Below are positions 46,012-48,045 of a DNA stretch of 62,079 nucleotides, one piece after another. Source of the stretch: Imperialibacter sp. EC-SDR9 (GTDB lineage Bacteria > Bacteroidota > Bacteroidia > Cytophagales > Cyclobacteriaceae); contig NZ_LR701606.1 in the NCBI RefSeq assembly GCF_902498805.1, forward strand, positions 1-62,079. The letters run 5' to 3'. Within the stretch, counting starts at the first letter, position 1; the number at the start of each line of letters is the position of its first letter. Below the pieces are notes generated by a model, which saw only the letters and a program-made list of their open reading frames with translations, did not search any database and had not been told where the DNA came from. Made by a program: the position numbers and the translations under genes.

Positions 46012-46019
46012 TATATTTG
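46012..46019 (+). promoter_or_regulatory. -7 element of the methyltransferase gene
   Basis: TATATTTG; the TTG of this box (46017) is in frame with the coding region but cannot be its start if this is the promoter. Supports initiation at 46050. Confidence 0.45.
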
Positions 46020-46049
46020 CAGGCATTTCGGAACCAGATCGCTATAGTT

Positions 46050-46817
46050 TTGAAGCACATCATTAGTTTTTTGCTACGGACAGTACCCAGAAAATACCTA
46101 CAGCTTTTCAGCCATTGGGTGCTCAAGGTGGTCTCCATCTTCTACATTGGCAACAAAGTGGAATGCCCGGTATGTAACGCCCACTTCCGAAAGTTCTTGC
46201 CCTACGGCAGGCAGTCCCGTGAAAATGCACTCTGCCCCAACTGCCTGGCCCTGGAGCGGCACAGGCTGATGTACCTGTTTCTCAAGAACAAGACTAACTT
46301 TTTCACCGATAAGTTGAAAGTGCTTCACGTGGCCCCGGAAATCTGCTTTATAGAAGCATTTGAAAAACTTCATAAAGACGACTACATCACGGCCGACATA
46401 GAATCGCCTTTGGCGAAAGTGAAGATGGATATCCATCAGGTGCCGTTTGACAACAACACCTTCGATGTGGCCTTTTGCAATCACGTGATGGAACATGTAG
46501 ACAGCGACCTGAAAGCAATGAGCGAGTTGCACAGAGTGCTGAAGCCTGGTGGGTGGGCAATTATCCAGGTGCCGTTCTTTTATCCGCTGGAAGAGAAAAC
46601 GGTTGAAGACATCACCATCACCGACCCAAAGGAGCGCTACCGCAGGTTTGGGCAGGACGACCACGTTCGAAAGTATGGCAAGGACTATGCTGAAAGGCTG
46701 GCTAGCGCCGGGTTTACAGTTGATGCCAATGACTATGTGAAGGAATTACCGGACGAAGTAGTTACCAGGTATGCGCTACCAAAAGACGAGACAATTTTCT
46801 TTTGCAAAAAGGCATAA
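46050..46817 (+). CDS. SAM-dependent methyltransferase with N-terminal zinc ribbon
   Basis: About 255 residues. An N-terminal four-Cys ribbon (VECPVCNAHF ... ALCPNCLALERHR) is followed by a class I methyltransferase core: VLHVAPEICF, D in ITADIESPLAKVKMDIHQVPF, FDVAFCNHVMEHVDSDLKAMSELHRVLKPGGWAIIQVPF (Methyltransf_11 type). Such proteins are often in surface polysaccharide or unknown pathways. No ATG is available; TTG at 46050 gives MKHIISFLLRTVPRKY. The TAA stop abuts the MITE-like element. Confidence 0.82.
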   Translation: MKHIISFLLRTVPRKYLQLFSHWVLKVVSIFYIGNKVECPVCNAHFRKFLPYGRQSRENALCPNCLALERHRLMYLFLKNKTNFFTDKLKVLHVAPEICFIEAFEKLHKDDYITADIESPLAKVKMDIHQVPFDNNTFDVAFCNHVMEHVDSDLKAMSELHRVLKPGGWAIIQVPFFYPLEEKTVEDITITDPKERYRRFGQDDHVRKYGKDYAERLASAGFTVDANDYVKELPDEVVTRYALPKDETIFFCKKA

Positions 46818-46820
46818 GCT

Positions 46821-47049
46821 AACGTGAGTTCGATATAAGAATGTCGTCACTCCGGAAAATATTGGCCTAAAATCAAAATGGGCCAATATTTATCCCAGGC
46901 GGGCAGCCCGGAATCTCATATGTCTTGAGGCGGAGATTGCGCCGACGTGGAACGGATAATTTTCTTCAGATGAGAAAAATATCTGAAGAAAATTTCCGCA
47001 ATGACGCCCTCGGTGATGTTTTGTTACTTTCTTATATCGAACTCACGTT
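46821..47049. mobile_element. MITE-like element with 21-bp TIRs and 5-bp target duplication
   Basis: A 229-bp non-coding element. The left end (46821-46841, begins AACGTGAGTTCG) and right end (47029-47049) are perfect 21-bp inverted repeats. AAGCT is duplicated immediately outside both ends (46816-46820 and 47050-47054). Inside are two strong hairpins: AAATATTGGCC/GGCCAATATTT (46857-46867 with 46881-46891) and a 13-bp stem starting ATTTTCTTCAG (46959-46971 with 46981-46993). No open frame of note, so it would need a transposase in trans. Family not identified. Confidence 0.85.
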
Positions 47050-47052
47050 AAG

Positions 47053-48045
47053 CTATTTATAAAAGGTATTGGCGTATCCAAACTTAGGCTTTCTTCTGAG
47101 TACATACACCTCAAATCCCGCTTTTAAGAAACCCAGTCCATAGCCGACCAGCTGCACGAATGCGGCCGGTACTGACAAGATCCCGGCTGGCAGACCATTC
47201 TTAGTTGTTGAATCAACCAGGATAATGGCCGCATAGATCAAAAGCGGAAAGAGCCTGTTGGCATTGAACAGCAAGGCCCAAACGACCAGAAAGAGCACCG
47301 CAACAGCAAACAAAGCCGGAAATGTGTGTACGGCCTTTGTAGAGCCGGGATGCAACAACTGCAGGTGGATTCTTGCCACGCCGGAGTTGAACACCTGCTT
47401 ATAAAACTGCCTGAAGTTGCTTCTGCGTTTGTGATACACCCAGGCCTCTTCAATCAAAACGCCTCTCACCCCTGCCTTTTCTGCCCTCAGGCTCAGGTCA
47501 ATGTCCTCGCCAAATCGCATGCCTCTGAAGCCTTCAATTTTTCTAAAAAGCGTTGATTCAATGCCCATATTAAAGCTTCTGGGCTTGTAGGCTTCCATCG
47601 ATTTCTTTCTCCCACGAATGCCCCCGGTGGTAAGAAAAGACGTCATGGAATAGTTGATGGCCTTTTGAGTAGCGGAAAAGTCGGGGGCAGCGTTGTCGGG
47701 CCCACCAAACAACAGAGGCAGCTTTGGCAGTGCCTCAAGGGAAGCTAAATAGCCCTGGGGTACAATTACGTCAGAATCCAGGAAGACCAACCACTCGCCC
47801 TTTGCCTGCAAAGCCCCATTGTTTCGGGCAGCTCCCGGGCCGGCGTTGGGTTGGAAAAGATAAGTGAGGTCGAGTCTGCCAGCAAAGGTTTCCACTACTT
47901 TGTCGGCCCTCTTCTCCGATCCATCCTCCACCACAATCACCTCAAAGTTTTCGGCGTTCTGGTCACAAAGGCTGTCAAGAAGTTCCCTGAGTTCTTCCGG
48001 CCGATTATAAACCGGTACTATGAATGAGTATTTGGGCTTAGCCAT
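47053..48045 (-). CDS. Glycosyltransferase family 2 protein
   Basis: 330 residues. The GT-A core is N-terminal (FIVPVYNRPEELRELLDSL, VVEDGS, ARNNGALQAKGEWLVFLDSDVIVP with the DxD), followed by a catalytic segment (GIRGRKKSME, FGEDIDLSLRAEKAGVRG) and two or three C-terminal TM helices. An inverting transferase using an activated sugar at the membrane is inferred; the acceptor is unknown. Last gene of the operon; its TAG stop lies at the right edge of the MITE-like element. Confidence 0.9.
   Translation of the reverse strand: MAKPKYSFIVPVYNRPEELRELLDSLCDQNAENFEVIVVEDGSEKRADKVVETFAGRLDLTYLFQPNAGPGAARNNGALQAKGEWLVFLDSDVIVPQGYLASLEALPKLPLLFGGPDNAAPDFSATQKAINYSMTSFLTTGGIRGRKKSMEAYKPRSFNMGIESTLFRKIEGFRGMRFGEDIDLSLRAEKAGVRGVLIEEAWVYHKRRSNFRQFYKQVFNSGVARIHLQLLHPGSTKAVHTFPALFAVAVLFLVVWALLFNANRLFPLLIYAAIILVDSTTKNGLPAGILSVPAAFVQLVGYGLGFLKAGFEVYVLRRKPKFGYANTFYK

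Follow-up and report, generated by a model that had tools for sequence, protein, structure and literature searches.

The locus and the boundaries of the element

The window, by which we mean the whole 62,079-nucleotide stretch of the Imperialibacter sp. EC-SDR9 genome analysed here (contig NZ_LR701606.1), contains a 227-bp element lying between two convergent genes, for a methyltransferase and a family 2 glycosyltransferase (Table 1). This copy of the element overlaps no ORF of 60 aa or longer, and its DNA has a fold z-score of -10.5. An initial annotation had described exact inverted repeats of 21 bp and an exact duplication of AAGCT. Inverted repeats are indeed present, within arms (46820-46844 and 47026-47050) that are complementary at 24 of 25 positions, but those terminating the 227-bp element are exact over 20 bp and mismatched at position 21. 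The AAGCT duplication is likewise exact but is merely the middle of a 7-bp exact repeat, TAAGCTA. This heptamer is the entire stop-stop junction of the two genes, the methyltransferase ending with TAA at 46815-46817 and the glycosyltransferase with CTA at 47053-47055. The annotation's further proposal, that an insertion had split a TAAGCTA junction without damage to either gene, agrees with these boundaries: both stop codons fall within the duplicated bases and the insertion was therefore harmless to both genes.

Table 1. Positions of the element, its parts and the neighbouring genes within the window
Feature	Positions	Strand	Basis or remark
Methyltransferase gene (Methyltransf_11), left neighbour	46017..46817	+	ORF and Pfam match
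Left copy of 7-bp direct repeat TAAGCTA	46815..46821	.	Contains the methyltransferase TAA stop
Whole element, 227-bp MITE	46822..47048	+	Genome copies, ends and flanking repeats
Left terminal inverted repeat, ACGTGAGTTCGATATAAGAA	46822..46841	+	First 17 bp equal both ends of the sister-species IS982
Core, head-to-head dimer of CGTC-tagged palindromes	46845..47006	+	Match to model R1, 101.3 bits
Palindrome unit 1	46845..46914	+	CGTC tag 46845-46848; stem base ACTCCGG...CCGGAAT
14-bp optional module, 3' arm of unit 1	46894..46907	+	In 5/16 copies
Palindrome unit 2	46936..47006	-	CGTC tag 47006-47003; stem starts ATTGCGG; inner hairpin
13-bp optional module, unit 2	46942..46954	+	In 7/16 copies
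Right terminal inverted repeat	47029..47048	-	Inverted-repeat comparison
Right copy of TAAGCTA	47049..47055	.	Contains the glycosyltransferase CTA stop (reverse-strand TAG)
Family 2 glycosyltransferase gene, right neighbour	47053..48045	-	ORF and Pfam match

Copies, target duplications and empty sites

The draft genome from which the window comes (6.8 Mb in 64 contigs) contains 16 near-full copies of the MITE, 15 of them with both ends and one (L006) without the left end, and at least three fragments besides. Copies range from 200 to 228 bp. For those with both ends the mean pairwise identity over aligned positions is 94.7%, and one pair is identical across 202 bp. Exact flanking repeats of 6-8 bp accompany 13 of the 15 copies with both ends, with TA at both ends of the repeat in 11 of these 13, while the remaining two copies have no exact 6-bp repeat. 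Among control pairs made by crossing the flanks, an exact repeat of at least 6 bp was reached in 8/210. Just TA was held in common by 164/210 crossed pairs, and the TA beside each end could alternatively be counted to the element, giving a 3-bp duplication. In copies L003 and L010 one flank has AA instead, as does the corresponding empty site of the sister species, which favours assigning these two bases to the target rather than to the element.

Empty sites were found in this sister species (G001), where the window locus has a methyltransferase gene 98% identical to that of the window and an unoccupied site. The annotation had suggested a search for empty sites reading TAAGCTA; the site is empty as envisaged but reads TAGGCTA, one substitution away. 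When the joined flanks of six further copies were used as 320-bp queries against the same genome, four matched over their full length (one of these with a 3-nt gap), a fifth matched over 147 nt (127/147 identical) and the sixth had no match, so that empty sites are present at six of the seven loci tested. No core matches were obtained in G001 among the 150 of 3662 first-look candidates that were scored by the model. A solitary MITE end does occur there (locus L062), and because of it the family may perhaps be ancestral and have been mostly lost, or never have expanded, in the sister species. The copy number, fold z-score and empty site confirm that a real element separates the stop codons of the convergent genes.

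The two optional modules (Table 1) occur in all combinations among the 16 copies (L001-L016), with both in four, the second only in three, the first only in one and neither in eight. Copies L001 and L008 differ in both modules although they agree at 199 of their 200 aligned positions, which points to conversion among copies or to precise loss of modules.

The position of the window copy, exactly between convergent genes, and its strong folding would fit recruitment as a two-way transcription terminator for both neighbours, as the annotation proposed for the internal hairpins. We consider this improbable because the element contains no terminator-like site, the sister species has a bare stop-stop junction at this locus, and the genes around the 16 copies, from a rough ORF call, are in every orientation (five convergent, six codirectional, four divergent, one of which is doubtful, and one without a call). 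The terminator scan found one terminator-like site outside the element, and a promoter scan covering sigma-70 types only found one site inside it (46844-46873). A terminator or promoter function was rejected as a candidate, since predicted sites of both kinds are about as many as in shuffled sequences.

A probable IS982-family partner

The genome of the sister species contains two 1029-bp copies of an IS982-family insertion sequence, whose transposases are identical and match NF033520 at 261 bits (cut-off 130). At both ends the first 17 bp of this IS are identical to the MITE ends, and beyond these 17 bp the two differ. The IS copies are flanked by the repeats TAAATA and TACTTTA, similar to the 6-8 bp and mostly TA...TA duplications beside the MITE. 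The annotation had also asked for an IS sharing the ends of the element: none is visible in the window's own 64-contig draft, where all 31 end-like sites with up to three mismatches are MITE copies or fragments, whereas one is present in the sister species. The multiple copies, their flanking duplications, the empty sites and the sister species' IS with matching ends together bear out its description of the element as MITE-like.

These comparative data make it very probable that the element is a non-autonomous MITE mobilised by IS982 and carrying a REP-type dimer as cargo. An IS982-family transposase acting in trans would recognise the ACGTGAGTTCGATATAA ends, and the element would insert into TA-rich targets of 6-8 bp that are duplicated on insertion. 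In the window the target would have been the 7-bp stop-stop junction, with the consequence that each gene retained a stop codon. We regard this placement as a neat accident, as TA-rich targets would suit overlapping stop codons. The mover would be an IS982 of the G001 type, or a similar one that is now absent from, or unassembled in, the window's genome; a hidden partner is possible because repeats of such length end up in gaps of the assembly.

A different IS982, with the visible end ACCTGAGTTCGATTTTAA, is seen in the window's genome solely as fragments, its 3' parts lying at ten contig ends (ten transposase fragments; L109 and L111-L119), and this multi-copy IS breaks the assembly. Its abundance, and an end that differs from that of the MITE at only three of the first 17 positions, raise the alternative that this resident IS cross-mobilises the MITE. 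IS transposases are, however, usually specific in end recognition, and the sister species has an IS whose first 17 bp match the MITE exactly, so that we judge cross-mobilisation unlikely. A point against mobilisation by IS982 in general comes from Roseivirga thermotolerans (G057), where no IS982 match was found despite at least 22 cores: the partner is absent where copies are abundant.

Structure and conservation of the core

The interior of the element is unlike a deleted IS and consists of two CGTC-tagged palindromes placed head to head, a REP-dimer-like cargo whose structure is conserved across genera. Unit 1 has the general form CGTC-ATTCCGG...CCGGAAT-CTC, with an A+T-rich inner hairpin within the stem and CTC after the unit, and unit 2 on the other strand has the form CGTC-ATTGCGG...CCGCAAT-CTC, its tail reading GAG on the plus strand at 46933-46935. 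In the window copy a C replaces the second stem T of unit 1, and each unit contains one module. The stems of copy L008 have 21 and 23 pairs and its loops 9 and 7 nt. The two tags of one dimer can pair together, and the tag is unpaired only for a lone unit.

We aligned 16 cores, six from the window's genome, four from G057, three from Marivirga aurantiaca (G147), two from G087 and one from G092. The CGTC and GACG tags are present in 15/16 and the CTC tail is found on both units in 16/16, while complementary AT occupies the first two stem positions in 16 and 15 of the 16 cores for unit 1 and in 16 and 16 for unit 2. Of 804 cells, 94.3% are paired, as opposed to 36-49% in slid structures. Changes on both sides were detected in 20/51 pairs (shuffled mean 13.2, with 0/500 shuffles as high), in a test whose shuffles ignore relatedness and whose structure derives from one of the aligned sequences; further pair types numbered 34, no more than in shuffles (mean 33.3, 207/500 as high).

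Changes on both sides of pairs would likewise be produced by quasi-palindrome correction or conversion, so that the palindromes could be kept self-complementary by these processes rather than by a function of the structure. Such an origin is compatible with the MITE reading, as it concerns only the reason for conservation of the core, and the occurrence of modules in all four combinations and of near-identical copies with different modules suggests conversion among copies. The retention of the same tag, tail and spacer position by both units across genera argues against correction as the cause, which leaves it a possible but rather doubtful explanation. The hairpins had been taken as incidental in the annotation; they are instead the conserved part of the element.

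Rfam models identified only a tRNA above gathering scores in the window, and nothing at E values up to 1 in four loci with the element or core. Counts of other REP-like units in the window were not clearly above those in shuffled sequences (16/100 and 10/100 shuffles as high).

Cores and ends in other genomes

Of 148 genomes of the family searched for the dimer with a covariance model, 15 contain cores, with up to 22 candidates scored per genome, so that counts of cores per genome are lower bounds. The window's genome has 17 core matches, corresponding to the 16 copies and one fragment. IS982-type ends, searched for with up to two mismatches anywhere in the stretch examined, were found on both sides of 19/20 core loci in R. 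thermotolerans (at least one side in 20/20) and of 7/10 in M. aurantiaca (at least one side in 10/10), some ends in the latter being off the usual offset owing to inserted sequence. With at least 22 cores and no match to an IS982 or Y1 transposase, R. thermotolerans appears to harbour an orphaned MITE family.

Cores without intact IS982 ends were found in ten other genera. For 48 of these, a set that covers part of the model matches and omits one core cut by a contig end (L214), we applied a strand-aware test for at least 10 of 13 end bases at the expected offset. Relics of the ends were detected on the left of 9/48 and on the right of 6/48 cores, compared to 0/1089 control windows on either side; relaxing the cut-off to 9/13 gave 10/48 against 8/1089 controls on the left and 10/48 against 31/1089 on the right. 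At the stricter cut-off 12/48 cores from six genera (G042, G130, G061, G059, G072 and G087) have at least one relic, and three (L209, L211 and L310) have relics on both sides. The other 36/48 have a relic on neither side, and end decay is for this reason not demonstrated for every core; the ends of these 36 may have decayed completely, or the cores may have arrived by another route. The flanks of end-less cores in G087 exhibit a weak rise in pairwise identity beside the core (0.443 on the left versus 0.357-0.369 at 60-120 nt), with slighter rises in G042 and G072 and none on the left flank in G111. Shared flanks were discarded as a candidate feature of end-less cores because of the weakness or absence of these rises.

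We also considered whether the core dimer is itself mobile through a tyrosine (RAYT-type) transposase, with the IS982-like ends acquired secondarily. In other bacteria RAYTs are considered to move REP doublets, as REPINs, in which a pair of oppositely oriented palindromes forms one unit, and such precedents count in favour of this alternative. The seven Y1 transposase matches in the window's genome and the cores lacking intact IS982 ends in ten genera point the same way, as does a subclass of Bacteroidetes RAYTs described as flanked by atypical structures that are copied elsewhere in the genome (PMC6006769). Against these points, neither a core nor the exact 8-bp CGTC-tagged palindrome was present at any of 16 Y1 loci examined out of 28 matches (including four of the seven in the window's genome), and R. 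thermotolerans has at least 22 cores without a PF01797 match. All core matches in the window's genome, moreover, fall on MITE copies or the one fragment, and flanking repeats and empty-site junctions coincide with the IS982 ends and not with the edges of the core. Mobility of the dimer via a RAYT-type enzyme is thus highly improbable, and a RAYT partner was dropped as the leading idea on account of the Y1 loci without core or CGTC palindrome and of the absence of a Y1 match in R. thermotolerans. Under mobilisation by IS982, the dimer would spread because the IS982 ends carry it.

Relation to known repeats

By its ends the element is a known kind of mobile element, and by its cargo an unusual one. 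The closest parallel to the ends is MITECca01 of Cardinium, described as an IS982-derived MITE; both are about 240 bp long, lack a transposase gene, have IS982-like inverted repeats and occur in many copies per genome (PMC9769881). According to that description, MITECca01 retains a short IS-derived sequence beside its end and has its parent IS in the same genome (PMC9769881). The present element instead has a dimer of CGTC-tagged palindromes as its interior, and an IS matching it was found only in the sister species.

The CGTC-tagged REPs of Di Nocera and colleagues (2013) occur mainly as head-to-head dimers whose stems begin with AT (PMC3733652). The core resembles them in its CGTC tag, in the complementary AT at the start of the stem and in the head-to-head arrangement of unlike units, but its stems are far longer than the 8-9 bp and its loops longer than the 4-5 nt reported there, its tail is CTC whereas most CGTC REPs fit CCA, and it is housed within IS982-type ends (PMC3733652). 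We therefore term the core CGTC-REP-like rather than a member of the class, because of the differences in stem and loop size and in the tail. A dedicated transposase is apparently lacking for CGTC REPs, which in that account have no association with transposase genes, and its discussion raises, without settling it, the possibility that transposases of many kinds are responsible for their movement (PMC3733652). The same source describes CGTC-1 dimers of H. neapolitanus inside 41-bp palindromes, flanks that it reports as not found without the dimer (PMC3733652). These share with the present element the regular placement of CGTC dimers between inverted flanks; the H. neapolitanus flanks as described are not tied to an IS (PMC3733652), while those studied here match IS982 ends and have short direct repeats outside them.

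As in REPINs, an oppositely oriented pair of palindromes forms one unit, and unlike REPINs, which are associated with RAYTs, the dimer was not found at the 16 Y1-transposase loci and is bounded by ends and flanking repeats of IS982 type. A search of the open-licence literature found no description, in titles or the opening parts of abstracts, of a CGTC dimer inside IS982 ends.

The link of IS982 ends with CGTC-type dimers is the point to follow. Such dimers lie within IS982-type ends in three genera, one of which also provides empty sites, and end relics are present at the expected offset in six more. This opens the mover of CGTC repeats to a direct test with a single transposase and a single marked element. 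We tentatively suggest that the CGTC dimers of this family may need no transposase of their own because IS982-type MITEs carry them as cargo or carried their ancestors, with the ends decaying after insertion and the palindromes persisting as an apparently free-standing dimer. If so, a missing vehicle would be supplied for a repeat class described as transposase-less, and end decay would be a possible route from MITE to free-standing dimer.

Wider occurrence and nested insertions

An exact pattern consisting of the end plus the core was found at 24 loci among 84,980 named GTDB genomes; 16 of these loci are in R. thermotolerans and two in M. aurantiaca. The others are single loci in another Roseivirga, another Marivirga, a Cytophagia MAG, a Calditrichota MAG, a Burkholderia and an Allgaiera. 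The Roseivirga, Marivirga and Calditrichota loci match the model. No model match was obtained for the Cytophagia locus, which has ends and a shortened interior, or for those of Burkholderia and Allgaiera, and the last two are probably chance matches to the pattern. The locus in the MAG labelled Calditrichota (L246; JAJRVW010000193.1, 701 onward) has a core matching the model and IS982-type ends on both sides, reflecting either transfer between phyla or a misbinned contig.

By eye, most of the interior of a core is missing between IS982-type ends at L256 (JABXIP010000077.1). Short G+C-rich palindromes are likewise seen by eye as insertions in the arms of cores in G087 (L220-L223), in G042 (L209) and at L235, L246 and L238. 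Several of these lie near the arm position of the modules in the window copy, and constitute a third level of nesting.
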